NCBI RefSeq assembly: GCF_932294415.1
Contig: NC_065545.1
Coordinates: 19,224,857 to 19,288,856, forward strand
Length of the DNA: 64,000 bases
Direction: 5' to 3'
Origin: Quercus robur
Taxonomy: Eukaryota > Streptophyta > Magnoliopsida > Fagales > Fagaceae
Made by a program: the position numbers and the translations under genes. The first letter of the stretch is position 1, and the number at the start of each line of letters is the position of its first letter. This document shows, one piece after another, positions 45,652 to 64,000 of this stretch. The notes under the pieces were generated by a model that ran no database searches, was not told the DNA's origin, and was given only the letters and a program-made list of their open reading frames with translations.

Positions 45652-46295
45652 TGATGGTACCGAAAACAATACCACCAATGAGTCACACGTTCCTCGCACG
45701 ATCACTAACGGCACCTGCACAACGAAAAAGAATAACCTAGCGGGGAGTACCGGTGTGGTACCGGCCAAGTACCCTCCGAAGGTCAAATTAGAATTATTCT
45801 CACTGCTCTAGAGTGCTAGAGAGGGTAAATTACGCGTACCTTGGTTTGTGAGGGTGCTTGGGTTTTTATAGTAGAGAGGGCTGACCCTCTTTTCCTTGGA
45901 GTAGAAGTCTTTTCCTTATCGGAGTCTTCCTGGGCGTATTTTACGGGATCCTTTCCATATAGGAGTCCTTAGGTTCCATGAAACGTGGGGAGCAAGTTAT
46001 TTATTTGTACATGCAAATGTGTAGAATAGGCGTTTCATAGACTGACGCCGTCAGTCTATGAATCCCGTCAGTCTACACATATCCTATGACCTTCAGGACG
46101 TTCGTCTTTGTGTCCTTTTGCCTTAGGTCACCGTCAGCCTAGAAGGTATGCTGACGGCAATAACGTCTCGTCACCATTGCAAGGCATTCACCGTCTCCTT
46201 TGTTAAGTATGTGCCGTCACCTCTTTTTAGGTCTTCACCGTCGCTCTTGTCCGTTATGTACCGTCACGCTGGCCAGCATAATTTTATCCTCATCA
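45652..46295 (-). repeat. 3' LTR of the Tat element
   Basis: A 644-bp LTR at the left end on the plus strand, one base different from the other LTR. On the plus strand its last 270 bp carry about eight CGTCA/TGACG words. Confidence 0.95.
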
Positions 46296-46310
46296 TTTGC
46301 CCCCTACTCC
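46296..46310 (-). other. Polypurine tract
   Basis: On the minus strand GGAGTAGGGGGCAAA lies directly upstream of the 3' LTR, where plus-strand DNA synthesis of the element would be primed. The purine run is broken by one T and one C. Confidence 0.6.
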
Positions 46311-46477
46311 ATAACTCCGTCACCCTCTGTACTGACGGGCTATGGAGTTTGTTTTTCAAAAGAGGCAGAAACATCGTTTGCGTGGATCCGAGCATTTAAT
46401 GCCTTGGACAGGTGGCTCGTTCCCATTGGCCTCACTTCTGACGAGATGTCGCTTCGTCTTCCGCGCCATTTTTTCCA

Positions 46478-46485
46478 TATATAAA
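46478..46485 (+). promoter_or_regulatory. TATA box of the antisense gene
   Basis: TATATAAA lies on the plus strand in the context CCATATATAAACAGCG. A start site about 30 bp downstream would fall near 46510, ahead of a 5' UTR intron (donor CCG|GTAAGT at 46622, acceptor TAG or CAG at 46711-46719). TGACG words occur at about 46332 and 46439, close upstream of the box. Confidence 0.6.
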
Positions 46486-46719
46486 CAGCGTTTCCAGTCA
46501 CTTTTTTCACTATTTCATCCTTGCTGAACTTGTGGAGAGACAGACCGTCGATCACCTTCCGTCAGCTTTAACTTCCGTCAGCTTATCCGTTGCTGTAGCC
46601 GTCCAGAGGGCTTCCATACCGGTAAGTTTTCATCCTCTCTCCTTCTCTTTATTTTTGCCTCATTAGTGAGGCCGTCAGCCTAGGTACTTAGTTTGAACCC
46701 GTCACTTGTAGGTAGTCAG

Positions 46720-48929
46720 ATGTCGAGTGACGCGTCTTGTGACGAGTCGTCAGTCCGCGAAGGAGCGGGCTACGACGAGACCTTTGGTTCCGGAAACGAG
46801 TCGGACTTCTCCCTCCCGTCAGAGAGAGAGTCGTCAGCCCAATCTCCTGACGGCAATGAGAGTTTTGCTGAGGGAGAAGATGAGGGAAGAGGGGATGAAA
46901 ATGACGGGGGTGGAATGGATATTGACGGAGGAAATAGTGACGGGGAGGAGAGATCCAGTGAAGGAACCTCGGAGGGTACCGTAGATAACCGTCCCTTCAT
47001 TCTTCCTGAGGATTGGGCCGTCAACAAATTTTTGCCTGGGATGAGTGGTAAAGTTTTTAGGGAGTTACGGATCCGTTATCAGATCCCAGACCACATCCCC
47101 CTCCGTCTCCCTAGAGAGGGTGAGAGGTGTTACTCCGGGCGGACAGCGGACGTTGGCATGTATGACGCCATGTTTGCTGCCGGCCTGAGGTTACCGTTGA
47201 CGGCTCTTCACCGTCAACTAGCTGACTTCCTTGGAATATCCGTCACCCAGGTTGCCCCAAACGCCTGGAGGACTTTTATAGGAGCTGAAATCCTGTGGGG
47301 CAGCTTTAGTGGAGGGCACCGTCAGCTTACACTCGGAGAATTTTTTTATTGCTATAGGCCTCATCACATTGCCTCGTCTAAGGGGACTTATCATTTTAAT
47401 GCCCGAGAGAAAGGGCTACGGTTAGTGTCAGATATGCCTGACTCAAATAGGAACTGGAAGAGTAGGTATTTTTTCGTTGAGGGGACGGACTGGGTGTGCC
47501 GTCAGGAGGAGTGGGCGACGATGCCCAGTGGTTACTTTGACAATACCTGGGCCTTTGTCAAGGATTCAGGTTAATCCCGTCACCCATGAGGTTCGTGCGT
47601 TTTTTGAAGTGACGGTGCTAACACTTGTTATTTTTTCTTTTTCCAGCTTATACCCGTCCGCATATAACTGACGAGCAGGAGGAGTTCATCCATCGGATTC
47701 TAGAAATTCCTTTGGAGGACCGTAAGTGCAGGGATTTGATTACCCTTGACACCCTCCATCTATACTGTGGGGGCCCAAATCCGTCAGCGGAAGCTCGTAG
47801 GTTGGAGGAGTTTGCGCGACGGCGTAAGTAGACTTTTATTTTTCCGTCAGTTTCATTATTTCCGTCACTTTTCCTAAAGTGTTTTCTTTTGTGTTGTAGA
47901 GATGGATTCTGCGAAGCAAAGGATACGGGCTGCCGCAGCTCGTCAGAAGGAGGAGAGGAAGGCCAAGGAAGCAGGGGGGGAAGCCTCGTCAACCCCCACG
48001 GCCGTCGCCAAAGTGGCGAAGAGGAAACCTGACGGGAGTGACGGCCGTCCCTCAAAAAAGCCTGCCGTCACTCCGTCAGTCGAACCATTGAAGGAAAAGT
48101 CCCCTCCGACGTCTGGCCATGGTGCGGGAAAGGGGGTGATGACTTCTGCTGGTCCCGTCACTGAGGGTCCGTGCCGTCTCCTAACCCACAAAGAATATGC
48201 CGTCGGGGAGGTTGAGTCCCTGATAAAACCAACGGACATGGAGCCCTGTGATCAAGTAGGGACGGAGGATTTAGGGGCGTCGGCCCTCTTTGATCTCTCC
48301 AGGGTAAGTTTCTCACATTTTTGGGTTGAACATACCGTATCTTGTTTTGGCGTACTTTTTATCTGACGGAAATGCTCTTTCAGGCCTTGGTTCGTGTCAA
48401 AGCCCTCCGTGACCGTTGCGTGGCGAAGGAGGGGGTCGTCAGTCGAGTTCGCAGCCATAACAAGAACTTGCTGAATCAGCAGGCTCAGTATAAGGAAGCC
48501 GTCCGTCTTCTTAACCAGGAGCTGCAGGAAGTCAAGGAGAAACTGACGACGGTCAGTGGCGAGAACGTCAAGCTCCAAGGAGAGGTGACGGCTCTGGAGG
48601 AGAAGTTACAGACGGCGGGGGCTGACGCGATTGGACACTTCAAAACGTCGCAGTCATTTATTGACTCATGTGGTCAATATTACGGCACTGGGTTCGATGA
48701 CTGCCTTCGACAGGTCGCGTCGGCCTTCCCAGAGCTGGACTTATCTGGGATTTCAATGGATGATGGAGACGACGTCTCTCTTCAACCAGAACCCACTCCG
48801 GAGCGTGACGGCTCGGTAGTCCTGGCTCAGCCTGCTGCTAATCCTACAGCTTCAGATTCTCCAACCGTTATCGTGGATGTTGAAGATCATCAGGCTGACG
48901 GAAATCCTGCTGACGCTCCTCCTGCTTAA
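46720..48929 (+). CDS. Antisense accessory gene of the Tat element: Transposase_28-like, coiled-coil protein
   Basis: Four coding exons on the strand opposite gag-pol: 46720-47569, 47647-47823, 47900-48303 and 48384-48929. Junctions are GT-AG (CAG|GTTAAT, GGC|GTAAGT, AGG|GTAAGT; acceptors CCAG, GTAG, TCAG). Phases are 1, 1, 0 and the frame stays open for 658 aa. The N-terminus is acidic and Ser-rich. Residues about 90-285 (FILPEDWAVNKFLPGM, IPDHIPLRLPREGERCY, LADFLGISVTQVAPNAW) recall Pfam Transposase_28, 'putative gypsy type transposon'. Exon 3 encodes a Lys-rich, disordered, possibly nuclear-targeting part (AKVAKRKPDG). Exon 4 starts with a coiled coil (QELQEVKEKLTTVSGENVKL) and ends in a Pro/Asp-rich tail. 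The start is the ATG after the 5' UTR intron acceptor. Extra antisense ORFs are known in Tat elements; their function is unknown. The domain name rests on memory of the family. Confidence 0.82.
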
Positions 48930-48956
48930 CCATGGCTATGTAAAAATTTTTTGAAA

Positions 48957-49075
48957 ATAGTTGTAATCTTTAGACGGTTTTTTGGAGAACAGTTGTAATT
49001 TTTTAAACAGTTGTAGTTTTTAAACAGTTGTAATTTTAAACAATTGTAGTTTTAAACAATTGTAATGTTTAAGTG
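48957..49075 (+). repeat. Short tandem array of (AAA)CAGTTGTAATTTTT, seven or so copies
   Basis: Units of about 16-18 bp containing TTGTA(A/G)TTTT follow the stop of the antisense gene by about 30 bp. The repeated UGUA word is typical of plant far-upstream polyadenylation elements, so the array may form the 3' end signal of that transcript. The role is inference. Confidence 0.55.
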
Positions 49076-49235
49076 CCCTTGACGTTTATGCATAGTTGCG
49101 CGTATTTCATTTCCGTCGCTTTTATCTCTATCTCAGACAAATGTTGGAAATTCCCGTCTGCTTTTAATACGTCGGCTTTTTAAACTGTTTGAATACCTCG
49201 TCAGCTTTGAGACCGTCAGTTTACAAGTGTTATCT

Positions 49236-49690
49236 TTTGACATCCTTGTTGGTCCGTCAGTTTTGAGGACCTTGCCTCAAAGATGGTTATTCCACCTTAT
49301 CGGACCGTCAGCCCTTAGGCTGTTAGTCTTTTTTGGGCCGTCACCTTCTTGGCCTTGGCCCTGATGTCGTTTGACATCCTTTTGGTCCGTCAGTTTTGAG
49401 GACTTTGTCCCTACGATTGTTACTCTATCTTGTTTGACCGTCAGTCTTTTGGCTTTTAGCCTTTTTGGGCCGTCACCTTCTTGGCCTTGGCCTTGATGTC
49501 ATTTGACATCGTTTTAGCCCGTCAGCTTTTTAGGTGTTGATGTCTTTTGACATCTTTGTTGATCCGTCGGCTTTTTAGCCTTTTCGGACCATTGTTCTCT
49601 TGGCTTTTTTAGCCTTGATGCCTTGACATCTTTCATTAATCCGTCAACTATTAAGGCCTGGGCCCTGTGATGGTTACTCCATCTTATTGG
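49236..49690. repeat. Tandem repeats of about 133 bp in the spacer between the antisense gene and integrase
   Basis: Units begin TTTGACATCC at 49236, 49370 and 49502, then shortened units follow near 49546 and 49623. Each holds GGTCCGTCAGTTTTGAGGAC, GGGCCGTCACCTTCTTGGCC or a variant. No ORF. The CCGTCA words recur once or twice in each unit. Confidence 0.75.
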
Positions 49691-49962
49691 ACCGTCGGCT
49701 TTTTCTTTAGTCCGTGTGTTATGGACTTAGTCGTTTTTTGGGCTGCAAACTTAGTGGTCCGTCGGAAGGAAAATACACTTCAGCAATTTCTGAATAAAAC
49801 TCCTCTTATTGCCATGCATTTAAATAAAAGCAATTAAAACCAAATCCTGCCCTTTGGGCTAAAAAAAGTTGTTGCGAAAAAACTAAAATAAACGATAAAT
49901 CTGAGGAGTTAAACTATAATTTGCTGAAAATATAAAAGGAGTTGGTCTTCATGCTGCTGCTC

Positions 49963-51288
49963 CTATTGGTAGTATTTCCGTAGGTGCTCGGTGTTCCACG
50001 GATGTGGTAGTTTCTGTCCCTCCAATGTTTCAAGGTGGTAAGTACCTTTTCTCTGCCACGACGAAACTCGGTAAGGACCTTCCCAATTGGGGCCGAGCTT
50101 CCCTTGGGTAGGGTCCCTAGCGGCGCCCATGACTTTTCTAAGAACAAGGTCTCCGACTTGGAAGTCTCTGTGTCGGACCCGAGAGTTGTAGCATTTGGCC
50201 ATGCGATCCTGGTACCTAGCGAGCCTTTGTTCTGCTGCTGCCCTGATCTCGTCCACTAGGTCGAGCTGTAGTCGCATAGCCTCGTCGTTTTTGCTCTCAT
50301 CGTGGTTGTGTACCCTGTAGCTTGCGAGTCCAACTTCGGCCGGGATGACTGCTTCGCTTCCGTACGTCAGGCGGAACGGAGTCTCTCCTGTGGGTGTTCT
50401 TGCCGTCGTTCTGTATGCCCATAGTACACTTGGCAATTCTTCGGGCCATATACCTTTTGCCCCCTCGAGCCGAGTCTTGATGATCTTTAGCAAGGATCGG
50501 TTCGTGACTTCGACCTGTCCATTAGCTTGAGGGTGGGCGGGGGAGGAGTAGTGGTTCTTTATTCCCAACTGTGAGCAAAAGTCCCGGAAGTGATCGTTGT
50601 CGAACTGTCTCCCGTTATCCGAGACAAAGACTCTAGGAATGCCAAACCTGCATACGATGCATCTCCAGACGAAGCTCCGAACGTTTTTCTCCGTAATCGT
50701 GGCTAAAGCTTCGGCTTCCACCCATTTCGTGAAATAGTCGATGCCTACTACCAGGAATTTCAGCTGCCGTATAGCTGTAGGGAATGGTCCCATAATGTCT
50801 AATCCCCATTGTGCGAACGGCCATGGGGCTGTCATTGGGGTCAGCTCTTCGGTCGGTTGTCTGATGATATTGCTGAACCGTTGGCATTTGTCGCAGGTCC
50901 TGACATAGGCTTCGGCGTCCTTCTGCATGGTGGGCCAATAATACCCTGCTCGTACAAGCTTGTGTACCAATGATCTGGACCCTGAGTGGTTTCCGCAGAT
51001 TCCTTCATGTACTTCTCTCATGATGTAGTCTGCTTCTTCCGTACCCAAGCACCTTAGATACGGTCGGGAGAAACCTCTCTTGTATAGGACGTCTTTTATC
51101 AGGACGAACCTTGCCGCTTGGACTTTAAGTTTCCTTGCGGCGTCCTTCTCGTCTGGTAAGACCCCGTCTTTTAAGTACGAAACTAACGGTGCTGCCCAGC
51201 TGCTGTCAGAACATATTTCCTGCATGTTGCCGAGATCTATTAGCGGGGAAAGCTGTACAAAAGAGAGTACATTACCAGGGATGACCAT
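49963..51288 (-). CDS. Integrase part of pol (downstream of the in-frame stop)
   Basis: This segment has 441 codons from the first ATG and is in the same frame as gag-pol, from which it is separated by one TAA and 23 sense codons. A zinc-binding region (about 94-135) has His94 and His101 and ends CDKC (Cys132, Cys135). The catalytic core shows LDIMGPFP (Asp164), VSDNGRQF (Asp224) and NGQVEVTNR (Glu260), a complete D-D-E set. A C-terminal domain follows (FQVGDLVLRK, GPYRV). With no promoter of its own it was presumably part of the polyprotein in the parent copy. Confidence 0.9.
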   Translation of the reverse strand: MVIPGNVLSFVQLSPLIDLGNMQEICSDSSWAAPLVSYLKDGVLPDEKDAARKLKVQAARFVLIKDVLYKRGFSRPYLRCLGTEEADYIMREVHEGICGNHSGSRSLVHKLVRAGYYWPTMQKDAEAYVRTCDKCQRFSNIIRQPTEELTPMTAPWPFAQWGLDIMGPFPTAIRQLKFLVVGIDYFTKWVEAEALATITEKNVRSFVWRCIVCRFGIPRVFVSDNGRQFDNDHFRDFCSQLGIKNHYSSPAHPQANGQVEVTNRSLLKIIKTRLEGAKGIWPEELPSVLWAYRTTARTPTGETPFRLTYGSEAVIPAEVGLASYRVHNHDESKNDEAMRLQLDLVDEIRAAAEQRLARYQDRMAKCYNSRVRHRDFQVGDLVLRKVMGAARDPTQGKLGPNWEGPYRVSSWQRKGTYHLETLEGQKLPHPWNTEHLRKYYQ

Positions 51289-51357: not shown

Positions 51358-51360
51358 TTA
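51358..51360 (-). other. In-frame stop codon splitting pol
   Basis: TAA here interrupts an otherwise continuous frame from 55197 to 49963. No frameshift is needed to continue. The codon lies in the second RNase H domain. Confidence 0.85.
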
Positions 51361-54300
51361 GGCTTCTAGGTCTCCCACCCTTGTCTTTACTTCGCCAAGG
51401 TACCTTTTCATCTTTTCGCCCTTGCAATCGTAGTCTCCGTTTATTTGGTTAGTGATGACCTGTGAGTCGCAGTAGATGACTACCCTGGCGGCTCCTGCTG
51501 CTTTGGCAAGGTCAAGTCCTGCTATCAGAGCCTCATACTCTGATTCATTGTTGGTGGCAGGGAAGTCGAAACGGACCATACATTCGATGGTGTCTCCTTC
51601 GGGCGACAGCAGCACGATGCCGGCCCCTGCGGCTTGTCTGTTGGACGATCCGTCCGTATACATGCTCCATTGAGGGGACTCTGCTGCCCCCTCATCTTCC
51701 CCATGGGTGAACTCAGCTATAAAGTCGGCGACGATCTGTCCCTTGATGGCGGTCTGCGGGCGATATTGAATGTCAAATTCGCTTAGTTCTATGGCCCAGA
51801 GTGCTAATCGTCCTGCCGTCTCAGGGCTGCTCATCGCCCGTCGTAGGGGCTTGTCCGTTAGGACGTTTATAGTATGAGCTTGGAAGTATGGCTTGAGCTT
51901 ACGGGCTGCCGTAATCAATGCGAAGGCAAGTTTCTCCATGGGCGGGTATCTCTCTTCGGCACCGTGAAGCGCTCGGCTTGCGTAGTACACGGGTTTCTGC
52001 ACCTTCTCTTCCTCTCTGACCAAGGCCGCGCTAACGGCTGCGGGGGAGACGGCTAGATAGAGGAAAAGTTCCTCTCCTGGCTGCGACGGGCTTAGCAGTG
52101 GTGGGGAGGAGAGGTAAGCCTTCAATCTTTCGAACGCTTGTTGGCACTCGTCAGTCCATTCGAAGGATTTCTTCAATGTTCGGAAGAAGGGCAAGCATTT
52201 GTCCGTCGCCCTTGACACGAACCTATTCAGTGCCGCTATCTTTCCATTGAGGCTTTGCACCTCCTTCACACTTCTTGGTGGTGCCATATCCATAATGGCC
52301 CGGATCTTGTCCGGGTTTGCCTCGATCCCTCTTTGAGACACCATGAATCCCAAGAACTTTCCGGCCGTCACTCCAAAGGCACATTTCCCCGGATTGAGTT
52401 TCATGTTGTAAGAGCGAAGGGTGTCGAATGTTTCTTTGAGATCTCCTAAATGATCTTCCTCCCTTCGGCTTTTGACTAGCATGTCGTCTACATAGACCTG
52501 GACATTCCTCCCAATTTGTTGCGCGAACATTTTGTTCATGAGCCTTTGGTATGTTGCGCCCGCGTTCTTCAGGCCGAAGGGCATGACCTTGTAGCAGAAT
52601 AGGCCTTGGCTGGTCACGAACGACGTTTTCTCCTGGTCGGCTTCGTGCATCCGGATTTGGTTGTATCCTGAGAAAGCGTCCATGAAGCTCAGCAACTGAT
52701 GTCGGGCCGTAGAGTCTACTAGGACATCGACCCTGGGGAGGGGGTAGCTGTCCTTGGGGCAGGCCTTGTTAAGGTCGGTGAAGTCCACACACATTCGCCA
52801 TTTTCCGCTCGCTTTCTTCACCATCACTACATTTGCTAACCAGTCGGGATAGTACACTTCCCTGATGAAGTTTGCATCCCGTAGTTTTCTGACTTCCTCT
52901 GCTATGGCTCGGTCCCGCTCCGGGGCAAACACCCTCTTCTTTTGTCTGACAGGTGAAAAGGCGGGCGACACATTCAGCTTATGCACCATTATTGAAGGAT
53001 CTATTCCTGGCATATCTTCATGACCCCATGCGAATACGTCTTGGTTTTGCCTAAGGAATGTTATGAGCTCTTGGCGGGTCGTGGTGTTAGCGAGTGTTCC
53101 AATTCTGGTCGTTCGGCCAGGATCGGAACTGTCAAGGGGTATCTCTTCTAGCTTCTCAACCGGCTCCGTTACCGTCCGGTGCTCTTCTATACTTAAGGTC
53201 TGAACCTGATCCTCCATTTCCACCATGGCTATGTAACATTCGCGCGCGGCCATCTGATTCCCGCGCAACTCCCCTACTCCGTAGTCAGTTGGGAACTTAA
53301 TCATCAGGTGGTAGGTGGAGGTTACTGCCTTCCATGAGTTGAGCGTGGGTCGCCCGAGGATAGCGTTGTAGGCTGATGAGCAATCAACAACCAAGAATGT
53401 CACGTCCCTGGCTATCTGTTGGGGGTAATCACCCACAACTACGGATAAGGTAACTGCGCCCAGTGGGAATACTCGGCTCCCACCGAAGCCGACAAGCGGG
53501 GCATTTGTCGGGATCAGTCGCCCCCTGTCGATCCTCATCTGCTGGAACGCGGTGTAGTATAAGATATCTGCTGAACTGCCGTTGTCGACGAGCACCCGGT
53601 GCATATTGTAATCTCCTACACGCAAGCTGACGACGAGTGCGTCGTCATGGGGATGGTGAAGGCGTCGTGCGTCTTCTTCTGAGAATCCGATCACGGGACC
53701 TTCTCTCCTTGCTATCTTCGGCACGGCTCCCGTTAGTTGAACATTCTGTATCAGCCGGAGATAGGTCTTACGGGCCTTCTTGGATGACCCGGCAGCGGTT
53801 ATCCCTCCTACGATCATCCTTATATCCCCAATTGGGGGCCTTGGTCGCTCATTGTCCCGTCGGGGGTGCTGGTCTTGTGCGGGGGGATCCGCCCTTTCCT
53901 TGCTAACGAATCTCTGCAGCTTTCCTTGTCTAATAAGGGCTTCAATCTGCTGCTTGAGGTCATAGCAATCTGCTGTGTCGTGGCCGTGGTCGCGGTGGAA
54001 TCGGCAGTACTTATCTCGTGAACGTTTGTTGGGGTCACTCTTCAGCTTCCCTGGGAACGTCAGCGATTCCTCGTCCTTGATCTGCATAAGGACTTGATCT
54101 ATCGGGGCTGTTAGCGGAGTGAAGCTTGTGAACCTTCCCCCCAGGGGCTTAGGGCGTCTTTCGTCCCTTCGGTCCGCGGTTCTTGCCTTTTTTCGGCTTT
54201 GGTCCTGCCGACCGTCTTCCTGCCGTTCTCTTTTTCTAGGCCTCTCTTCCCGAGCTAAAAGTGCATCTTCAGCGTTCATATATTTTGTGGCACGATAAAG

Positions 54301-55197
54301 TACTTCTGACATGGTTTTTGGGTCGTTTTTGTATATGGAAAACAAAAACTTGCCCTTCTTCAAACCATTCGTAAATGCCGCGACAAGTATCTTGTCGTCC
54401 GCTTCGTCGATTGAGAGCGCCTCTTTATTGAAACGGGAGATGTAGGCTCTTAGAGTTTCGTCTTCTCGCTGCTTCATACTCATCAAGCAAGCCGTAGACT
54501 TCTTGTACCGATGGCCTCCAATAAAGTGTGCGGTAAACTGAGCGCTGAGTTCCTTGAAGGTGCTGATGGAGTTTGGGGTCAGTCGACTGAACCAAATTCT
54601 TGCCGCGCCCTTTAGCGTTGTAGGGAAGGCCCTACACATGATGGCGTCCGCTACTCCTTGAAGGTGCATTAGGGTTTTGAAGGTCTCCAGGTGGTCCAGT
54701 GGGTCCTTGACCCCGTCATAACTGTCTATCTGCGGCATGCGGAACTTGCTCGGCAACGGGTAGGAGTTGACGGTTGTGGTGAACGGTGAGTCCGTTCGGT
54801 TGACAAGATCGTCAAGGTCGCTCGATACTCGTCCCTTGAGAGCATTCATCATAACCTCCATTTGTTCCTTCATGGCTTGCATCTCCGCGAGGACGAGGGG
54901 CGGAGTGGTTTCCGCGAGGGAGGGGATGCTCGTGTTCTGTCGTTCAGGTTTGCTCGGGGCGTTGCTGGCCTGGGGTCCTTCCTGGTTTCTCCTGTCAGCG
55001 CTGGTTCCTTCCTGCTCTGCTCCTTGGTTATTGGGAGCTGCATTCTTCTGTCTCAGTTGCTCTTCTAGGTCGTGATTTTGCTTTGTGAGGCGCTCCACGG
55101 CGGCGGCGAGCGTTCTCACTTGTCTTTCAAGCGCGGTTGTAGGGGTTTCTTCTTCCTGAATGTCGTTGTTGGTCGCCATTGAGCGAGTGAGTACCAT
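51358..55197 (-). CDS. Gag-pol polyprotein (Gag, protease, RT, RNase H), ended early by an in-frame TAA
   Basis: An open frame of 1279 codons. Coiled coil about 22-52; Gag about 150-300 (DPLDHLETF, GAARIWFSRL); zinc knuckle of the CxFHxxxGHxTxxC kind about 398-411; aspartic protease with VDNGSSADIL (Asp538); reverse transcriptase about 765-955 with WRMCVDFTDLNKACPK and YVDD (902-905); first RNase H about 1045-1165; second RNase H with MYTDGSSN (Asp1180), ESEYEALIAGL (Glu1219) and YCDSQ (Asp1244). The TAA at 51358-51360 falls before the last catalytic Asp of this second domain, which is read in the same frame further on. The start ATG (55195-55197) lies about 60 bp after the 5' LTR. With a single LTR difference, the stop is probably a recent point change, unless it is read through. 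Confidence 0.93.
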   Translation of the reverse strand: MVLTRSMATNNDIQEEETPTTALERQVRTLAAAVERLTKQNHDLEEQLRQKNAAPNNQGAEQEGTSADRRNQEGPQASNAPSKPERQNTSIPSLAETTPPLVLAEMQAMKEQMEVMMNALKGRVSSDLDDLVNRTDSPFTTTVNSYPLPSKFRMPQIDSYDGVKDPLDHLETFKTLMHLQGVADAIMCRAFPTTLKGAARIWFSRLTPNSISTFKELSAQFTAHFIGGHRYKKSTACLMSMKQREDETLRAYISRFNKEALSIDEADDKILVAAFTNGLKKGKFLFSIYKNDPKTMSEVLYRATKYMNAEDALLAREERPRKRERQEDGRQDQSRKKARTADRRDERRPKPLGGRFTSFTPLTAPIDQVLMQIKDEESLTFPGKLKSDPNKRSRDKYCRFHRDHGHDTADCYDLKQQIEALIRQGKLQRFVSKERADPPAQDQHPRRDNERPRPPIGDIRMIVGGITAAGSSKKARKTYLRLIQNVQLTGAVPKIARREGPVIGFSEEDARRLHHPHDDALVVSLRVGDYNMHRVLVDNGSSADILYYTAFQQMRIDRGRLIPTNAPLVGFGGSRVFPLGAVTLSVVVGDYPQQIARDVTFLVVDCSSAYNAILGRPTLNSWKAVTSTYHLMIKFPTDYGVGELRGNQMAARECYIAMVEMEDQVQTLSIEEHRTVTEPVEKLEEIPLDSSDPGRTTRIGTLANTTTRQELITFLRQNQDVFAWGHEDMPGIDPSIMVHKLNVSPAFSPVRQKKRVFAPERDRAIAEEVRKLRDANFIREVYYPDWLANVVMVKKASGKWRMCVDFTDLNKACPKDSYPLPRVDVLVDSTARHQLLSFMDAFSGYNQIRMHEADQEKTSFVTSQGLFCYKVMPFGLKNAGATYQRLMNKMFAQQIGRNVQVYVDDMLVKSRREEDHLGDLKETFDTLRSYNMKLNPGKCAFGVTAGKFLGFMVSQRGIEANPDKIRAIMDMAPPRSVKEVQSLNGKIAALNRFVSRATDKCLPFFRTLKKSFEWTDECQQAFERLKAYLSSPPLLSPSQPGEELFLYLAVSPAAVSAALVREEEKVQKPVYYASRALHGAEERYPPMEKLAFALITAARKLKPYFQAHTINVLTDKPLRRAMSSPETAGRLALWAIELSEFDIQYRPQTAIKGQIVADFIAEFTHGEDEGAAESPQWSMYTDGSSNRQAAGAGIVLLSPEGDTIECMVRFDFPATNNESEYEALIAGLDLAKAAGAARVVIYCDSQVITNQINGDYDCKGEKMKRYLGEVKTRVGDLEA

Positions 55198-55239: not shown

Positions 55240-55257
55240 TTCCCACAGACGGCGCCA
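55240..55257 (-). other. Primer-binding site
   Basis: On the minus strand TGGCGCCGTCTGTGGGAA begins two bases after the 5' LTR. The leading TGGCGCC would pair with a tRNA 3' end (...GGCGCCA). I do not assign the tRNA with certainty. Confidence 0.75.
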
Positions 55258-55259
55258 AC

Positions 55260-55903
55260 TGATGGTACCGAAAACAATACCACCAATGAGTCACACGTTC
55301 CTCGCACGATCACTAACGGCACCTGCACAACGAAAAAGAATAACCTAGCGGGGAGTACCGGTGTGGTACCGGCCAAGTACCCTCCGAAGGTCAAATTAGA
55401 ATTATTCTCACTGCTCTAGAGTGCTAGAGAGGGTAAATTACGCGTACCTTGGTTTGTGAGGGTGCTTGGGTTTTTATAGTAGAGAGGGCTGACCCTCTTT
55501 TCCTTGGAGTAGAAGTCTTTTCCTTATCGGAGTCTTCCTGGGCGTATTTTACGGGATCCTTTCCATATAGGAGTCCTTAGGTTCCATGAAACGTGGGGAG
55601 CAAGTTATTTATTTGTACATGTAAATGTGTAGAATAGGCGTTTCATAGACTGACGCCGTCAGTCTATGAATCCCGTCAGTCTACACATATCCTATGACCT
55701 TCAGGACGTTCGTCTTTGTGTCCTTTTGCCTTAGGTCACCGTCAGCCTAGAAGGTATGCTGACGGCAATAACGTCTCGTCACCATTGCAAGGCATTCACC
55801 GTCTCCTTTGTTAAGTATGTGCCGTCACCTCTTTTTAGGTCTTCACCGTCGCTCTTGTCCGTTATGTACCGTCACGCTGGCCAGCATAATTTTATCCTCA
55901 TCA
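55260..55903 (-). repeat. 5' LTR of the Tat element
   Basis: A 644-bp LTR at the right end. In coding orientation it starts TGATGAGG and ends ACCATCA. It should hold the promoter for the genomic RNA. Confidence 0.95.
55468..55479 (-). promoter_or_regulatory. Candidate TATA box for the retrotransposon genomic RNA
   Basis: The minus strand reads CTATAAAAACCC inside the 5' LTR, leaving about 180 bp of R-U5 after a start some 30 bp downstream. The same box occurs in the 3' LTR at about 45861-45871. Confidence 0.55.
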
Positions 55904-55984
55904 GTTTTAAAATATTGTATTTTGAAAAAAAGTGTGGAAGGTTTGTACATGAATTTTATTTTTTTTCAATGAAAGAAAAAAAAA

Positions 55985-56560
55985 TTAAAGCATTAAAATT
56001 AAGTGATCGAGAGCAAAGTTACAAATATCTTGCCACCCAGTTTTAGAGGGAAAAAAAAAAAAATCAAGGCTGAAGTGAAGACTACCAAATACATACATTT
56101 CCTTAAAGTCCATTTGTGATTTGACTAGCCAGTGAGCCACTCTATTTGCACTTCTAGTCTTAAGGTCCATTTGACATGATCTAGAATCAGTTTTCTATGA
56201 TAACTTTCTTTAGTTGTTTATCCTTAGCCAGTTAAAGAGTCTATGATAACTTTCTTTAGTTGTTTATCCTTAGCCAGTTAAAGAGCCCAAAAGTTTCAGC
56301 AATATACATAAGATTTGAATTTTGAGCCCAAAAGATGGCTTTGGCCTATGCTGCTTCAACCTTCAGGTTGCATTTTGGAATTTGTGTAGCCCAACCCTAC
56401 CTGATTCTGTCACTCCAATCACCAAGCACAGCTGTGATACCTGCCTTATTGACTCCAATGCTGCATCACAGTTTGACTTCCAAAATTTCTCACGTGGCTT
56501 GGCCCAATCTCATACTAGGCATTGCTATGATTACATTCGAATCAAAATTCCTTAGGTGGA
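55985..56560 (-). pseudogene. Degraded LINE RNase H fragment
   Basis: Reading leftward, the minus strand gives a broken RNase H-like block with a WAKP motif and NCDAA (near 56460-56520), then stops and frame changes. RSANRVAHWLVKSQ follows near 56100-56150, the typical end of a plant LINE RNase H. The two parts are separated by a 46-bp tandem duplication (56194-56285). There is no usable ORF. Confidence 0.5.
56194..56285. repeat. Perfect 46-bp tandem duplication
   Basis: TCTATGATAACTTTCTTTAG through GCCAGTTAAAGAG occurs at 56194-56239 and again at 56240-56285 without a mismatch. Confidence 0.9.
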
Positions 56561-56684
56561 TTACATTAAAAAAAATGGATACATCTATATCTATATAATA
56601 TTTAAAAGTTAAAGTGTAGCATTTATTCTTACTACACTCCTATTGAGCCACGTCACTACATCAACATAGCATTTTAGTTCACTT

Positions 56685-56826
56685 AGTCTATTTCGGTCCA
56701 CTAGGTTTATTTGGTCCATCTCAGTCTATTCGGTCTACTTCAGTCCAATTAGGTCCACCTTGGTTCATTTCAGTCCACTTTAGTCTACTTCTGTCAATTT
56801 GATCCACTTCAGTCCATTTCAGCCCA
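56685..56826. repeat. Degenerate 9-10 bp minisatellite (TTCAGTCCAC type)
   Basis: About fourteen diverged units of TTCAGTCCAC/TTCGGTCTAC follow each other. The sequence just before (CTATATCTATATAATATTTA) is also a frequent plant repeat word. No ORF. Confidence 0.6.
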
Positions 56827-57279
56827 ATCCCTACGCATTTCACAGGTTAGAGACTAATTACATATATTGCCATCAAGATTTAACCACAATTTTGAAATTT
56901 CATTATATTCATCGCATCACATGATTTCTTGGGCCTCGTCTTATTATTCTTAGGGCCATTTGTCATCTCGTCTATCTTAGGAGGATGTATCTCTTGGATC
57001 AACTAGGTCCGGTCCCAAAGTCTCTAACTGTCCTTTTGTTTCTCTGTTTTAATATTTCATCCAACTTTTAAAGCTCTTATGATAGAGGAACGTGTGATGA
57101 TCACTACTAAATCTCTTTACCATTTCGAGTGTTTTCGCAAATTATAATGAATAGTGATTTGAAGTTTAGATTAATAAAAAAATTTGAACAATGAATTATA
57201 GAGTTTTTCCCCTCTCTAACAGCTCCAAATTTCAACTTTAGCCTTAAAGATGTTTACAATGTTTGACAATTTGTGCTAA

Positions 57280-57590
57280 GAGAGCTTTAAGGATCTTAGA
57301 ACACTTTTCTGGTTGTGCTAATGCACCACCAGAGGCACCCTATATGTGTTAAAAAGAGTTTTAAGGCTCTTAAAGCACTTTTTTGGCAGTACCAGATACA
57401 GTATACGTTGCAAATGTTTTACTACTAAAAGAGATTTAAGGATCTTAAAAAAGAACCTTTTCTGGCTATGCTAATGCACTACCAGAGGCACCCTATATGT
57501 TCTAAAAGAGTTTTAAGGCCCTTGAAGCACTTTGTTTTGACAGTGTTCATATATATACACACGCTATATTTTAAAAGTTTTACTATTTAC
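57280..57590. repeat. Four-unit array with A-B-A-B order, unit about 75 bp
   Basis: Units start near 57283, 57357, 57431 and 57508 with (A)G(C/T)TTTAAGGATCTTA or GTTTTAAGGCTCTTAAAGCA. Units 1 and 3 share CACCAGAGGCACCCTATATG or a one-base variant. Units 2 and 4 share AGTTTTAAGG followed by AAGCACTTT and lack that block. So a 75-bp unit was duplicated, diverged, and then the pair (about 149 bp) was duplicated again. Confidence 0.7.
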
Positions 57591-57599
57591 GTACACAAG

Positions 57600-58805
57600 G
57601 TGTTTAGTTGCATCCAAAGCTTCAAAAAATGAATACTATTTATTTATTTATTTATTTTTTTGAGAAAGAATACTAGTATTTATTTTGGTAATTTATTATT
57701 TGCACGTGATAATAATAGACGAACCCAATGTAAACTTCCTTAACATTAATGCATATACAGAGAAGAAGTCATTTTGATACATGATTTTAAAAACATAGAT
57801 AACAATCACTTAAATGAAATAGTATATTTTCCTCAAAGAAAAAAAAATAGTCTAGAATTAGAAAGAAACTGTGTAAAGTAGTTGCTTCCAATGTTTGACA
57901 AACTTTTTTTCTTTTTTTTTGGATAACCCAATGTTTGGCAAACTTCATTCTTTGGCAAAATAAAAAGAAATAACTCCTAAAAATACATTCCTTAATTTGG
58001 CAAACAAAATAAAGACGGTAAGGGAGATTTAAAATAAATAAATAAATCAATAAAAAACATGGATAGGATTTGGGGAATAGGATTGAAAACCTCAATAATA
58101 ATTTTTGTGGCTAAATGGCTGTGTGAAAAGCCTTATTATTTATTGTTTGGCAAAGTTTATTTCCTTTAATAAAATTCCCTTACACGATAACTTGTGGGCG
58201 TATGCAATTGACCACTAAAGTAATTGGAATCATTGTTGGCATATCTTATTGAAATAATAGTTTATTATGTGGAGTCGTGGAAAGGATAGCACGATGGTTA
58301 TATACCCTATTTCCTTCTCCAATTAATTACTTAGCCAATAGCAATCATACAGTGAATATTATTATAAATCATAATCAAATAATATAATCTTAAGAGATAA
58401 AAATAAAAAATAAAAAATAAAAAGTCCGCATGCAATGAGTCTTTCATCAATAACACCTATCTCTGTTGGTATTTTATAAATAAATTTTCAACTGAATAAA
58501 GTATATATGTATAATTTAAACATCTAGTGTTTAAAACGTGAAAATAAAAATGAATTATTAATATTATGTGTTGTCGTGTAGACGTACGGTAATATGATAT
58601 ACATGGACTCGAGTCATATATGCTAACCTTGGTACTGGGTAGCTACTAGCTAGCCAACGTATAGAACTATTATTCCCTGTAGAAAAAAAGAAAAAACAAG
58701 TTGTAAATAAATAATGTTTGACTTTGAGTGTGTTGATTTGACTGATGAAAATGATGGATTTATTGAAATAAATAACTTAAAAAAAAGAAGAAGGTATTTT
58801 TGAAT
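57600..58805. other. Intergenic, no gene recognised
   Basis: AT-rich with short AAAT and TTTA repeats (57640, 58035, 58400). No coding signature. Confidence 0.4.
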
Positions 58806-59150
58806 GGACAAAATTTAGATACAAAATTATTTATAAGCAAATTAAATGTTACAATTTTACTAAATAAATCAAATTTTGTGTAAATTGATATTATTTACTA
58901 TATGATCTATAAGTTATTATTTTATGTATAATTTTAAATTATAAAAACTTGTAATTTAAACAATTTATTAATGACATAGTTATTGGTCTTTAATTTTTTA
59001 GAAATTTTGCGAGTATAGAAGATATAAGAAAAAGATGTAATCTAATAGTGAATTTGTCAAAATTTACATTCAATAAAAAAATATTAAGTAAGGTTATAGT
59101 TTAAGATTACAATTAATTTTGTAACTAAATTTTATTCTTTTTTAATATGA
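58806..59150. mobile_element. MITE, second copy of the 13978-14382 family, reverse orientation
   Basis: TTTACTATATGATCTATAAG near 58897 is the reverse complement of a block in the first copy. The right end (GTTATAGTTTAAGATTACAA, then TTTTGTAACTAAATTTT) matches the reversed left end of that copy. The left end (AAATTTAGATACAAAATT) matches its reversed right end. It is more eroded than the first copy. Confidence 0.55.
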
Positions 59151-59241
59151 AAAAAATGGAACATTGAAACTGATCCTATAGCTTAAAGGATTGATTACTT
59201 AAACTCTAAAGTTTATGAGGGGGCAAAACCGATCCAATAGC

Positions 59242-59340
59242 AAATTGGGCTAGGCCATGCTCAATGCAAGTTGTCTCTACCTTCTCTACCAAATTGGGCT
59301 AGTCCATGCTCTATGCAAGTTTGCCCTACCTTCTTAGGCC
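59242..59340. repeat. Tandem duplication, unit about 49 bp
   Basis: AAATTGGGCTAGGCCATGCT at 59242 recurs as AAATTGGGCTAGTCCATGCT at 59291. Both copies continue with (C)TATGCAAGTT-like and CTACCTTCT words. Confidence 0.75.
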
Positions 59341-59370
59341 CTTTTTGTTGTAACAAACTTTCCCACCTTA

Positions 59371-60102
59371 GGGTCCGTTTGGTTGGAGAATTGGAAAAGT
59401 GGGAGGATATAAAAGATTTAGTTTTCCCTTATGTGTGTTTTGTTGGAGGGGTGAAAAGGTAGGAGGGTGGAAAGCTTTTTTGTTTGGCTGGAGAGAAAAA
59501 GGGAAGGATGGAAAATGTAGTTTATATAAATTGACTATTATGTCATTGTTATATAATATATAAGAAATATATATATTTACACTCATTAAATAATATAAAA
59601 ATTAACACAAATATATGTAAATTTATATTAATTATTTTATTATTATAATAATTTAAAATTTATGGCTCGGCTTATTACCTAAGAAGACAATTTCAACCAA
59701 AAAATAAAAAACAAAATAGAATGACATAACAAACAACTATTGGTTTGGACTTTTTGTGTCTATTGTTTAGTTATATTATATACGTGCTGTGTGAAGACAT
59801 TTGTGAATAATGGAAAAAATAATAATAATGATCATTCACAGGTGAGATGAATAAAGTGAGAGGTAGATGAGATGAATAAAGTGAAAGTATTTGTGTAAAG
59901 TACATCATTTAGTACTTTTTCCTCTCTATTTTCCTCTCAAATTGGGAGGATAAAGAAATGTGGGCTCGGAGGGAAAATTTTCCTCCCCATTTTCTCTCTC
60001 TTATTTTCTTTCCTAAACCATACAGTGGAAAATGCAATTTTCCACCCTATTTTCCTCTCCCTCTTTTCCATCCTCTTTGTTTCACCCCAACTAAACATAC
60101 CC
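59371..60102. mobile_element. PIF/Harbinger-like (Tourist-type) element, 732 bp
   Basis: Left end GGGTCCGTTTGGTTGG and right end CCAACTAAACATACCC are imperfect inverted repeats of the GGG(C/T)CTGTTTGG type. TTA is present directly outside both ends (59368-59370, 60103-60105), as expected for the 3-bp target of this superfamily. Subterminal GGGAGGATAAA/TTTTCCTCCC words also face each other. No transposase ORF. Confidence 0.7.
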
Positions 60103-60114
60103 TTAGTTTATTTT

Positions 60115-60345
60115 ATGCCACACACATCAAATCTCTCTTCCAAGTTTATATCACAAATATTGTGTCACAATGATATATTAAATTTCTCTTACAAGAAAGT
60201 GGGTATATTTAATATATCACCGGACACATCAATTCTCTCTTGCAAATCTATGTCACAAATATTGTGTGACTTGTATCATAATGATATATCAAATTTCTCT
60301 CATAAGAAAGTCGGTATATCAAATCTCTCTCACAAGGGAGATTTA
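60115..60345. repeat. Two-copy tandem repeat of about 105 bp
   Basis: ACACATCAA(A)TCTCTCTT starts units near 60122 and 60224. Both contain TCACAAATATTGTGT and ATGATATAT(T/C)AAATTTCTC. A third, partial unit (TATATCAAATCTCTCTCACA) follows. No ORF. Confidence 0.6.
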
Positions 60346-61837
60346 ATATATCACTGTGATTCTAAATACTTGTTACTCCTTCTAGAGGCTCCTATATTGG
60401 GAGGCTGCATAGGAGGCTCTAGAAGGTTGAGAGGGTTGATTTTTCAAGCATTATTCAATAATAGTTGAGTTGCCAAAAAGGGGGGAAAGGGATAGATTTC
60501 CTGGAAGGGACCTCCTTGACTGGTGTATGATGTGCGGTGTGCCCGCCTTCACTCACTAGTCAAATGTCAAACTTGCTGGCTGGGCTCAAAGCCCTAGCAA
60601 AGAGCAATCAAGCTTCAGACTCCATAGATTTTTGTCAACTACCAAAAATCCCACTCTCAATACCTACCCTCTCCTGATCTCACACCTGCTCTAGAAACTA
60701 TTCCTAAGAAACAAACACCCATCACTTTCCAATCTCGTCTCCCTCTCCACCAACTACCTAGACTCTTCTTTCATGGTTTCTTGATCAAAGTTCCCATAAA
60801 CATATGATGTTTATAATCATGTACCTGGGGATCGATCTGCATAGTTTTATTTTGTATTTTGAAATCTACATCATAGTTGAGGTTGTTATAGGACTTATGG
60901 CCATAACACTTAGTGGGGGTGGGTTTAATTATTAATCAATCAATATAATATCATGGATTGGAATCAAAGTTTGCAAATCGTGACAAGACAAAAGTTGGAA
61001 ATGAATGAAAGCTTTCTCCTTTTACTTCGTTGGGAAAGTCTTTCAGAAATCTTGAATTTTGACCCATATAAATTAGCCGACAGAATTAAAGTTTATTAAT
61101 CAAAATTATCTAGCAACCATAGGTTAATTTATTTAAATCATGAATTAACAATTCAATTATCGTTATCTCACGTTTTAAACACATGGGGTATTTTCTTTTA
61201 TTTAATTAACCAAGATATCCTAGCATCATGAAGGGATAAAGCAATTCACAATTGGAAACTTAGAAATTTTATTTTTTCAATTTACTAGTTGACTTGAGTT
61301 TCTCACCTTCTTGATGTAATTCTGAAGAAAACAGCCTTCATAGTTTTGATACAATGAATTGGACGTATATTCAAATTGAGTATTTATTGTAATTTACATT
61401 TTACAAAAATAGTTTGATGTTGACAAATGAGAAGATGACAACCAAGAGATCTAAACAATTTAGACATGAGCATAAAATGACGTCACCATGTCATCACAAC
61501 ATATGTCTAGATGCATGTTAGAAATAACTTTGTTAACACCGCCGTCGGGAAGAAAATATACATATGAACTCTGAATCACGACTTTTGGTTGACCGAAAGC
61601 TCTATTTTTTTTTTTGGTCCACTTATAATTCACATAATATTAGTTTTTTAATTTTAATAATTAGACAAACCTTATGTGAATTCTTATATTTTGGTTAATA
61701 TAGACTTATAAAATAATTCTTGAAAAAATATTAAACTTTTGAGTTTGTTTTGTACTGATTCTTTTTTTGAGAAGATGTACTCATTCTTACATATTCTTAT
61801 ACACACATTTACGTGAAAATAATAAATTATTACATTA
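60346..61837. other. Intergenic, no gene recognised
   Basis: No coding motif or RNA gene is seen. A slightly GC-richer stretch at 60480-60780 reads like repeat-derived DNA but I could not classify it. Confidence 0.35.
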
Positions 61838-62037
61838 GTGTCTGTTTAAGAACAACTTATTTAATTAAAACTGAAAATTTTTTATTGAAATTACCATAGA
61901 TAAAACTAAAAAGTAGTTAAAATAGTATAGTAAAACCCATAAATAGTACCAAAAAGTGTAATGAGACCCATGAATAGTAGTAAAAATAAACTAAATGATA
62001 AAAAAACAGGCTTTTTAAACCAATGCCAAACGCATAC
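61838..62037. mobile_element. Tourist-like MITE, 200 bp, copy 1
   Basis: The ends GTGTCTGTTTAAG and GCCAAACGCATAC are degenerate inverted repeats flanked by TTA (61835-61837) and TAA (62038-62040). The interior words AAAACCCATAAATAGTACC and GAGACCCATGAATAGTA recur in reverse complement in the copy at 62816-63015, which has the same length. Confidence 0.65.
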
Positions 62038-62815
62038 TAAAAATTTGTGCTCCTTTTATTAATTTTAAATATATATATATATATATATATTTATCACTTT
62101 TGAAATGTTATAATAAGTTATTTTTTCTCTTAATTAAAACTCTTGCTTTCTATATTTTTATTTATTTAAATTATTTACATTTGATTGCCTTTTATAGATT
62201 TTTAGTCATTAAAAGACATTGATAAAATAAAAAGAAATATTTATTTTATTTAATGAAGTGTAATAATAACATATTAATTATGATATAAATCATAAAAGAA
62301 TTATGTAAAGAAAATCCATTAAAAAGAAAAGAAAAAAAAATTAAGGAGAGAGAGAGAGAGAGATTTATTATCAATCAAAGGGGTATATGAATTTTGGGTG
62401 GAGGACAATTTCCCATCCTTAACCCTTAACTTCGTCCTTGGTTGGCTTAATGGTTCTGAAACGAGGTCTAGCTAGGATTGTTAAAAGACTCGTTCGAAAA
62501 ACCATGTGCTCTACTCAAATTGACCTATCAAGATTTGAGTAGTTTTGATGATATATTGTGGTTGGCATTGGATTGAAGTCTCCAAAAATTGATCCTTTCA
62601 ATTTGAGTGTTGATTTTCTTGTAGTGAAATATGATGCAACTGAACCAATTGGCAAAGATCTTAAAGGGCTTTCAAATTAGGTGGAGGTCTCTTGTTACCC
62701 TTCGTTGTCCATCATTGTCGGTTTTTGATTGAATTTGACCACCACACATGAAAGACCAAACAATTGTGATCATGGTTGTTTGTGGTGAATTGTGATTTTT
62801 GCTATTCTCCACTTA

Positions 62816-63015
62816 CACACTGTTTGGCAAAAATTATTTTTGCCAACTTATTTTACTATTCAACTTATTTTTGCTACTATTTATGAGTTCTACTGTACTT
62901 TTTGGTACTATTCATGGGTCTCACTGTTCAATTTTAGCTAACTTTTACCTTTATCTACAATACTTTAGCAAAAAATTTTCAATTTCAGCAAAATAAGCAG
63001 ATCCCAAACATACCA
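62816..63015. mobile_element. Tourist-like MITE, 200 bp, copy 2 (inverted relative to copy 1)
   Basis: The ends CACACTGTTTGGC and CCAAACATACCA are flanked by TTA on both sides (62813-62815, 63016-63018). The interior TACTATTCATGGGTCTCACT is the reverse complement of the matching block in copy 1. Confidence 0.7.
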
Positions 63016-63424
63016 TTAACCAGGTTGGTTTGAGATGCAACTTAAGACCTAAACCACCTTGACTTAAAGCTTTCAAGAGATTCCTCCCTATCATACAAGA
63101 CTATATACTATGCATCGGATGTATGTTTCCTCCCTATCGTATGGGGACCACCTCTATGTAAGAGGAAGGAAACATGCATTCAATATGATATATTTTATTG
63201 TTATAAAGGATGGGAGCCACATACACCTAAGGAATAATGAGATGATTTTAAAAGTTTGACCAACAAAAATAATTGAATTTTTGCTCAATAGTTTAAATAG
63301 ATAATATCATAATAGTATACCAAATTATCATTTAACTTGTACTAATGTAATGAGGCCAAATTGGCCATTTACTACTTTTCGTGGAAATTATTAGTAACAT
63401 ACCACTGTTTACAAAATAAGTAGC

Positions 63425-63750: not shown

Positions 63751-64000
63751 TTTTCAATAATCAACAAATAAACATAAATATAAAAATAAGTAATTTTTTT
63801 TCATTTGAATGCACAAACATATGTTTTTATTTATTTAAATGGAAGAATTATAAAATATATAAATTTTAATTTCAAAATATTAATTTTTAGGCCACTCATA
63901 CCCCTTGTTCATTCATTTTTAACACACTCATCAATTTCTAACTTCTTGGACGCGTTATGGTCAAATTGGTTAAAATATTGGGGGTTAGAATGAGAAATTA

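Follow-up and report, generated by a model that had tools for sequence, protein, structure and literature searches.

Why is one part of an oak retrotransposon filled with a single short word, in coding and noncoding DNA alike, and what could read it? The window, a stretch of 64,000 nucleotides from Quercus robur, contained 40 CGTCA and 24 TGACG between positions 46020 and 49650. These 64 words compare with a mean of 6.6 in 300 dinucleotide-preserving shuffles (z 23), and the initial annotation, which had estimated by eye about 60 where about 7 would occur by chance, was thereby confirmed. In an unbiased k-mer ranking, made without pre-selection of any word, the top hexamer was CCGTCA (46 against 1.8 expected) and the top heptamer CCGTCAG (24 against 0.4 expected).

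The region belongs to a young Ty3/gypsy retrotransposon of the Retand/Tat type on the minus strand, classed by its gene content. Gag, RT, RNase H and integrase follow each other in gypsy order with LTRs on either side, and an antisense ORF with Transposase_28, hereafter the antisense TRP28 gene, is placed between pol and the 3' LTR. The two LTRs are 644 bp long with one substitution between them. Scans of viral contigs (with a TRP28 exon and with RT) and of genome contigs (with RT) gave no relatives. The parts of the element are as follows.

45652..46295, minus strand: 3' LTR, with TG...CA ends and a 5-bp target duplication, GTTTT
46020..46295: U3 half of the 3' LTR, with 8 CGTCA/TGACG; the U3/R border at about 46020 is a probable placement
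46296..46310, minus strand: putative polypurine tract, minus-strand reading GGAGTAGGGGGCAAA
46296..46719, plus strand: promoter, 5'UTR and 5'UTR intron of the antisense gene, with 7 motifs
near 46477, plus strand: TATA-like ATATATAAA; the TATA, TSS and 5'UTR intron are putative, placed by eye
46720..48929, plus strand: antisense TRP28 gene, 4 predicted exons, 658 aa
47167..47355, plus strand: Transposase_28 (PF04195) stretch, from a domain match
48930..49780: spacer from the antisense gene to pol, with 11 motifs, 10 of these in 49191-49780
49236-49534: 133-bp tandem repeats in the spacer
49963..51288, minus strand: integrase ORF (Integrase_H2C2, rve), motif at chance
51358..55197, minus strand: gag-RT-RNase H ORF, motif at chance
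55240..55259, minus strand: putative primer-binding site region adjoining the 5' LTR, GTTGGCGCCGTCTGTGGGAA
55260..55903, minus strand: 5' LTR, with the same 8 motifs on its U3 side (55628-55903), upstream of gag-pol

Every feature type was raised, as had been claimed for LTR, UTR, exons, introns and spacer. The U3 held 8 motifs, the promoter 3, the 5'UTR with its intron 4, the exons 33, the introns 5, the T-rich stretch at 48930-49190 1 and the spacer repeats 10, and each single exon and each single intron was raised. The U3 was the densest feature (28.8 motifs per kb) and includes a 29-bp palindrome at 46034-46062 with two motifs head to head. No motif was found in the outer LTR half (R-U5) or in 49781-49962. 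The integrase contained 1 motif against 2.2 expected and the remaining gag-pol 8 against 6.5, near chance as originally noticed. The right-hand LTR repeated the picture, with 8 identical motifs in U3 and none in R-U5; since the element is in minus-strand orientation, what had been called the inner half of the LTR is its U3 side.

Coding frame, which the word had been said to ignore, was disregarded by CGTCA (4, 6 and 6 in the three exon frames) but not by TGACG, for which 14 of 17 lay in one frame, 3 in a second and none in the third. Part of the exon excess could therefore reflect Asp codons. Synonymous-codon shuffles, however, keep the protein constant, and none of 2000 reached the 33 exon motifs (mean 11.7, maximum 22). 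Codon choice is thus biased towards the word.

The word of the window's family is best written (C>T)CGTCA. Of the 18 one-letter neighbours of CCGTCA that were compared, CCGTCG, TCGTCA, CCGTCT, CCGTCC and GCGTCA were raised (z 3.4-6.8) and the other 13 had z values of at most 1.5. TRP28-free controls consisted of five copia loci, the flanks of the window and the window family's own gag-pol. Four of the copia loci had no CGTC excess; the exception was locus L080, with CGTC at 9 against 4.2 and TCGTCA at 4 against 0.5.

All copies and families compared came from one genome, and the six loci L063-L068 were outside the analysed set. CCGTCA was the top XCGTCY word in 28 of 28 loci, the window's own element being one of these, so the pattern recurs in sister copies. 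Other TRP28 families had the CGTC core in common and differed in its flanks. Family B had an excess of TCGTCA and family C an excess of TCGTCC; in one representative of each, this extended to noncoding DNA. In pol, again of one representative each, TCGTCA reached 11 against 3.4 in family B (maximum 9) and TCGTCC 12 against 2.2 in family C (maximum 8; 1000 synonymous shuffles in both cases). Because these families are enriched in their own word within pol, the absence of an excess in pol is a peculiarity of the window's family; the confinement that the initial annotation described is correct for that family's gag-pol and does not extend to B and C. The assignment of words was not perfectly sharp. 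TCGTCA was the top word in 17 of 21 family B loci, and family B noncoding DNA also uses CCGTCA. CCGTCC was raised as well in family C pol (8 against 1.9), TCGTCC was mildly raised in the window family's gag-RT-RNase H ORF (7 against 3.6, with 36 of 1000 shuffles as high), and locus L071, in the window's TRP28 clade, has TCGTCA. On a tree of 23 TRP28 proteins the dominant word changed 4 times, where the minimum is 3, and none of 200 label shuffles gave so low a number. The family-specific flanks follow the TRP28 tree.

These words bear on the origin first suggested for the array, a set of stress-factor sites of the TGA/bZIP or methyl-jasmonate type. TGACG is known as the core of plant cis-elements, and this, with the concentration of the words in U3 and about the divergent promoter, would suit an array for a host transcription factor, of the TGA/bZIP or another family, accumulated for stress- or tissue-specific expression. 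TGA factors prefer an ACGT core, but the ACGT-core hexamer ACGTCA was at chance (2 against 1.7), and an as-1/TGA bZIP array was rejected because the TGACGT/ACGT core was not enriched. The family C word TCGTCC contains no TGACG. Furthermore, the flanks vary by retrotransposon family inside one host genome, which a shared host factor does not predict, and the sites fill exons, introns and the pol of families B and C, which is unusual for promoter sites. We regard a host-factor array as unlikely.

Twenty copies were aligned, and conservation was followed in the 7 that had diverged most. In noncoding DNA 162 of 217 motif cells were intact, against 87 of 217 for CG controls of the same composition and 612 of 1225 for other CG pentamers. 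The gap between motif and control was widest in U3, where 45 of 56 motif cells were intact compared with 37 of 210 for other CG pentamers. CGTC columns were 97.5-98.2% conserved and adjoining columns 78-95%; the copies keep the word while adjoining bases change. Eight distant loci (64-80% nucleotide identity) retained 16-42 of the 64 motifs against 4-18 of 81 controls, and 10-20 motifs were present at new positions, so the array turns over. In the exons, the single most diverged copy gave no significant difference between motif and other CG pentamers (p 0.17). At fourfold sites in the core 0 of 26 had changed, against 40 of 272 at all other fourfold sites (p 0.03; p 0.06 in a second copy) and 4 of 45 at CG-context fourfold sites (p 0.29).

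A mutational cause, raised as an option in the initial annotation, is contradicted by this preferential conservation. Tandem duplication, conversion or CpG-related mutation might have spread the word, and the 133-bp spacer repeats do hold several motif copies. However, the flanks of CGTCA share almost no information beyond one base on the left and about four on the right, codon choice is biased, and the CpG-decay products of CCGTCA were not raised (CTGTCA 0, CCATCA 2). Moreover, at 65% nucleotide identity one distant locus had kept 30 of 64 motifs against 9 of 81 controls of the same composition, with gains elsewhere. We concluded that such an artefact is highly improbable.

Orientation was informative as to the molecule on which the word acts. 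In the spacer CCGTCA has one orientation in the window's family (9 to 0) and in family B (6 to 0), as might be expected of a signal in genomic or antisense RNA for packaging, splicing or small RNA. The family C spacer, however, has the opposite orientation throughout (0 to 7), the exons hold 10 words one way and 10 the other, and introns, U3 and exons are all alike in enrichment. With both orientations occurring, an RNA-level signal was rejected and is given very little probability. The view that the pressure acts on DNA and not on protein was borne out by the rise in all features, the synonymous bias, the two exon orientations and the sister copies. No 10-11 bp helical period was present among 304 pairwise spacings of up to 300 bp.

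The antisense gene itself has predicted exons at 46720-47569, 47647-47823, 47900-48303 and 48384-48929; two open splice solutions were found within the boundary ranges tried, differing at the exon 2/3 junction. The predicted protein has an acidic N-terminus, the TRP28 domain, a basic stretch and a coiled coil. Its Pfam matches were Transposase_28 and generic coiled coils, the former at 22.1-23.1 bits, under the curated cut-off of 26.2; 23 of 24 aligned members matched PF04195 at E ≤1. Whole-gene dN/dS was 0.12-0.18 in 9 comparisons, and that of the TRP28 part was 0.04-0.09 in the 7 more diverged comparisons; the 2 with least divergence gave 0.21 and 0.38. Purifying selection acts on the antisense protein. 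Predicted TRP28 structures were of low confidence (pLDDT 54.9 and 50.6); with the first of these models Foldseek gave no solved-fold match under E 0.001, and a sequence search of the PDB gave 3 matches (best E 0.046), none relevant. The structure models and the Foldseek result were accorded no weight. In the main-text parts of the literature considered, TRP28 is predicted to bind DNA (PMC11963269), and it is stated that no role is known for the antisense proteins of the TRP28 type that plant retrotransposons encode (PMC11963269, PMC7264820).

We consider it probable that the many CCGTCA words are sites, maintained by selection, at which double-stranded DNA is recognised, and that the array they form co-evolves with the element's antisense TRP28 and is most likely read by it. 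The array would mark the U3 promoter, the antisense gene and the spacer, and its reader would be the protein from the element's own antisense gene. Array and protein would change together, the CGTC core being kept and the bases on either side changing with each TRP28 family; each protein would then mostly affect elements of its own family. If TRP28 works as VANC does, its binding would keep two promoters open or unmethylated, or else regulate them: U3, which serves gag-pol, and the divergent promoter of the antisense gene. We infer the binding of the word by TRP28, an effect of this binding on chromatin or transcription, and the direction of that effect.

TRP28 could also bind the array for a structural task, such as packaging cDNA, bringing the integration complex into the nucleus, tethering to chromatin or integration. 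Since exons contain sites, as does pol in B and C, the protein could coat the DNA copy over its entire length, and a review suggests, in the part considered, a role in retrotransposition and nuclear import for such proteins (PMC7264820). The gag-pol of the window's family, however, has no excess, and promoter regulation fits better with U3 being both the densest feature and the one with the widest conservation gap. We judge a purely structural task to be rather improbable.

Extending the recognition array to the lineage, we tentatively propose that Retand-type LTR retrotransposons might possess an autonomous, sequence-specific anti-silencing system, in which TRP28 would read CGTC words with family-private flanks, even in genes, and co-divergence would separate families from one another and from the host; with a CpG inside the core, binding might itself sense or counteract CG methylation. 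If this proposal is right, sequence-specific self-recognition of the VANC kind arose in retrotransposons too, which would help to explain continued Retand amplification in methylating hosts and would provide a series of proteins whose specificities have diverged around CGTC. The result supplies a predicted target word per family for TRP28-type proteins.

Among known systems, En/Spm TnpA and the Ac transposase are transposon proteins that bind many short subterminal words, and TnpA has been linked to activation of methylated Spm. Unlike the element here, En/Spm and Ac are DNA transposons with sites only in subterminal positions. HTLV-1 HBZ, a bZIP protein, comes from an antisense gene expressed from the 3' LTR, and the retroelement antisense gene adjoining the 3' LTR resembles the present one; we know of no saturated word for HBZ. 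Antisense genes of HTLV are mentioned in parts of PMC7264820 and PMC11963269. No saturated Retand word is described in the main-text portions considered of the literature, including PMC11963269, PMC5735166, PMC10398659, PMC7264820, PMC12859917 and PMC12844716, and CCGTCA itself was absent from the ten best-matching of 2,374 papers on retrotransposon LTR motifs. The Retand lineage, as presented in the main text of PMC11963269, shares with our element the long region between pol and the 3' LTR, the antisense TRP28 gene and the tandem repeats, and a regulatory role of TRP28 is proposed there; it differs in that no target word or saturation is described in that portion.

A close likeness in kind is to the anti-silencing VANC/VANDAL system of Arabidopsis Mu-like DNA transposons, for which co-evolution of protein and target has been published (PMC5735166, PMC10398659). 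According to the parts of these papers considered, an additional transposon gene, multiple occurrences of one short word along the element, different words in related families and spread of the word by tandem repeats are common to both. As there, a family-specific short word saturates the element. There, a DNA transposon carries VANC; here, an LTR retrotransposon carries antisense TRP28, and the word has a CGTC core with a CpG. Whereas VANC sites are, in those same parts, noncoding, the word here is also present in exons and in the pol of families B and C.

The motif-rich region lies within a minus-strand insertion of a Ty3/gypsy LTR retrotransposon, the features of which are given below.

Features of the element (positions within the window)
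45652-46295 and 55260-55903, minus-strand element: LTRs of 644 bp, with one substitution between them
GTTTT, flanking the element: target duplication
55197-51358, minus strand: gag-RT-RNase H
51288-49963, minus strand: integrase
46720-48929, plus strand: antisense gene between pol and the 3' LTR, four predicted exons, 658 aa

Because the element lies on the minus strand, the motif-rich half of the LTR is its U3 (promoter) side. In the first exon of the antisense gene a match to Transposase_28 (TRP28) was detected below the cut-off (22.1 bits vs 26.2). The predicted protein has an acidic N-terminus and a TRP28 domain, together with a basic stretch and a coiled coil, a layout that would resemble a dimeric regulator. 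The same gene arrangement, an antisense TRP28 gene between pol and the 3' LTR, has been described for Retand elements (PMC11963269). Directly outside the element, short tandem repeats were observed at 56194-56285, 56680-56826 and 57272-57518, with units of 46 bp (a perfect duplication), about 20/49 bp and 74 bp.

The initial annotation had estimated about 60 CGTCA/TGACG words in 3.6 kb where about 7 were expected, and we counted 64 in 3.63 kb (46020-49650) vs 6.6 in shuffles. In an unbiased k-mer ranking CCGTCA was the first hexamer and CCGTCAG the first heptamer. Word density ranged from 11 to 29 per kb across U3, the promoter, the 5'UTR and every exon and intron, and was 17 per kb in the spacer repeats. 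Only 1 word (3.8 per kb) occurred in the T-rich stretch 48930-49190, and none was detected in 49781-49962 or on the R-U5 side of the LTR. Gag-pol, earlier described as near chance, was indeed so, with 0.8 per kb in integrase (1 vs 2.2 expected) and 2.0 per kb in the remainder (8 vs 6.5). Against synonymous shuffles, 3 CCGTCA were counted in the gag-RT-RNase H ORF vs 2.1, and 0 in integrase vs 0.6; TCGTCC was mildly raised in the former (7 vs 3.6, 36/1000 shuffles as high). Elsewhere in the window no excess of CCGTCA was observed (1 vs 4.6 in 1-45651, 0 vs 0.5 in 55906-64000), and CGTC was found 46 times vs 54 on the left and 13 vs 7.7 on the right. The exons contained 33 words, more than in any of 2000 synonymous-codon shuffles (mean 11.7, maximum 22). 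The word had been thought to ignore the coding frame; this held for CGTCA, found in three frames, but not for TGACG, which was mostly in one (14/17).

Among the 18 single-letter neighbours of CCGTCA five were raised (CCGTCG, TCGTCA, CCGTCT, GCGTCA and CCGTCC), all differing from it at the first or last letter only. Neighbours changed inside CGTC, both CpG-decay products included, were near or below chance (z <=1.5). The flanks of CGTCA shared almost no sequence past one base on the left and about four on the right; a longer copied repeat thus does not account for the sites outside the spacer. By these patterns, the word resembles a binding site. A 29-bp palindrome in U3 (46034-46062 and 55642-55670) holds two CGTCA sites head to head and may form a hairpin or bind a dimer with high affinity. 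It adjoins the inferred U3/R border.

Counting the window's own, at least 40 copies of the stretch from U3 to exon 1, sharing 84-100% identity, were found in the 785.7 Mb genome. The pattern was present in the sister copies: all 28 loci examined (a set of 8, among them the window's own copy L001, plus 20 of the 32 others) had 15-18 CGTCA per kb. Intact motif cells were counted in the 7 most diverged of 20 aligned copies, which are related, so that cells are not independent. Noncoding motif cells were intact in 162/217 cases vs 87/217 for same-composition CG words and 612/1225 for other CG pentamers; in U3 the counts were 45/56 vs 37/210 for other CG pentamers, and in exons 208/231 vs 246/350 and 1612/2177, respectively. 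The four core columns were 97.5-98.2% conserved and adjoining columns 78-95%. In one copy alone (L028) the difference from other CG pentamers gave p 6e-5 (noncoding) and p 2e-4 (U3), and in exons p 0.17. No fourfold-degenerate core site had changed (0/26 in the copy L024, 0/25 in L028) vs 40/272 (p 0.03) and 39/268 (p 0.06) outside the core; core sites were not distinguishable from CG-context fourfold sites (4/45 and 4/44 changed). The antisense protein is under purifying selection, with a whole-gene dN/dS of 0.12-0.18 in 9 pairwise comparisons; in the TRP28 part the 7 pairs with more divergence gave 0.04-0.09, and the 2 with least gave 0.21 and 0.38. In the six most diverged comparisons the first 90 codons (46720-46989) had a dN/dS of 0.18-0.61, above the TRP28 part; the two least diverged had the reverse order.

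A protein search, in which 150 TRP28 matches of 77-100% identity were scored, provided eight hand-picked, more diverged loci of 3.9 kb each. CCGTCA, TCGTCA or CGTCAG was among the top words in all eight, and CCGTCA was the dominant XCGTCY word in seven (22-35 each). At 64-80% nucleotide identity 16-42/64 motifs were intact vs 4-18/81 same-composition controls, and each locus had 10-20 words at new places. Word density is maintained by conservation and turnover together. In the eighth locus, L071 (G000:C37:19202364-19206264), TCGTCA dominated (16 vs 8 CCGTCA), possibly a recent switch of specificity. Its protein is 81-82% identical, within the window's TRP28 clade.

In a PF04195 search 150 of 4149 candidates were scored, and the 30 loci listed comprised clusters B (21) and C (7) and two singletons; TRP28 domains of the aligned loci were only 26-32% identical to the window's. 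The top XCGTCY word was TCGTCA in 17/21 family B loci (TCGTCT in 2, TCGTCC in 2) and TCGTCC in 7/7 of family C. The TCGTCT of L054 and L039 (family B) is possibly a further variant word. In one representative of each family (L034, L046 and neighbouring pieces) its own word was enriched in the gene and ahead of it, and likewise in spacer and pol, the B spacer containing mainly CCGTCA; at a distance of 1.5-3.6 kb on the upstream side of the TRP28 match, counts were near chance. Family B had six sites in the last 110 bp before the apparent, inferred LTR end. B pol contained 11 TCGTCA vs 3.4 in synonymous shuffles (max 9 of 1000), and C pol 12 TCGTCC vs 2.2 (max 8 of 1000), with CCGTCC also raised (8 vs 1.9). 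The pol of B and C (L060, L062) is saturated with the family word beyond codon choice and that of the window family lacks its own; the latter family may have exchanged pol by recombination or been retargeted later. On a TRP28 tree of 23 proteins (L029 left out; strong support for 3/20 inner branches only) the dominant word changed 4 times, the minimum possible being 3, and 0/200 shuffles were as low, a clustering helped by near copies. In copia controls CGTC was without excess in 4/5 loci. The fifth, L080, had an unexplained 9 CGTC vs 4.2 and 4 TCGTCA vs 0.5.

The region had been proposed to be an as-1/TGA bZIP or methyl-jasmonate array, on account of the TGACG core. As ACGTCA was at chance and the family C word lacks TGACG, we disfavour this idea.

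Excess, bias beyond codon choice, conservation and family-specific flanks are settled by computation in this genome. As the simplest reading, we propose that each element would label its own DNA with the word and that its own antisense TRP28 protein would read the label; reading by this protein is rather probable. TRP28 is predicted to bind DNA, and a regulatory role has been suggested (PMC11963269). Anti-silencing, activation, repression and packaging are candidate effects; the specific anti-silencing version, argued by analogy, is tentative and less probable than not. It is compatible with a study of sunflower, in which Retand elements are reported to show locally reduced CG methylation and high CHG methylation (PMC12844716).

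VANC proteins, encoded by Arabidopsis VANDAL transposons, bind short repeated words that differ between related families and strip methylation (PMC5735166, PMC10398659). Neither modelling nor matching gave a fold for TRP28, which counts against a strict VANC copy; unlike in such a copy, the sites of TRP28 elements run through coding DNA and their core contains a CpG. With repeated short words differing by family in both, VANC is the nearest working model.
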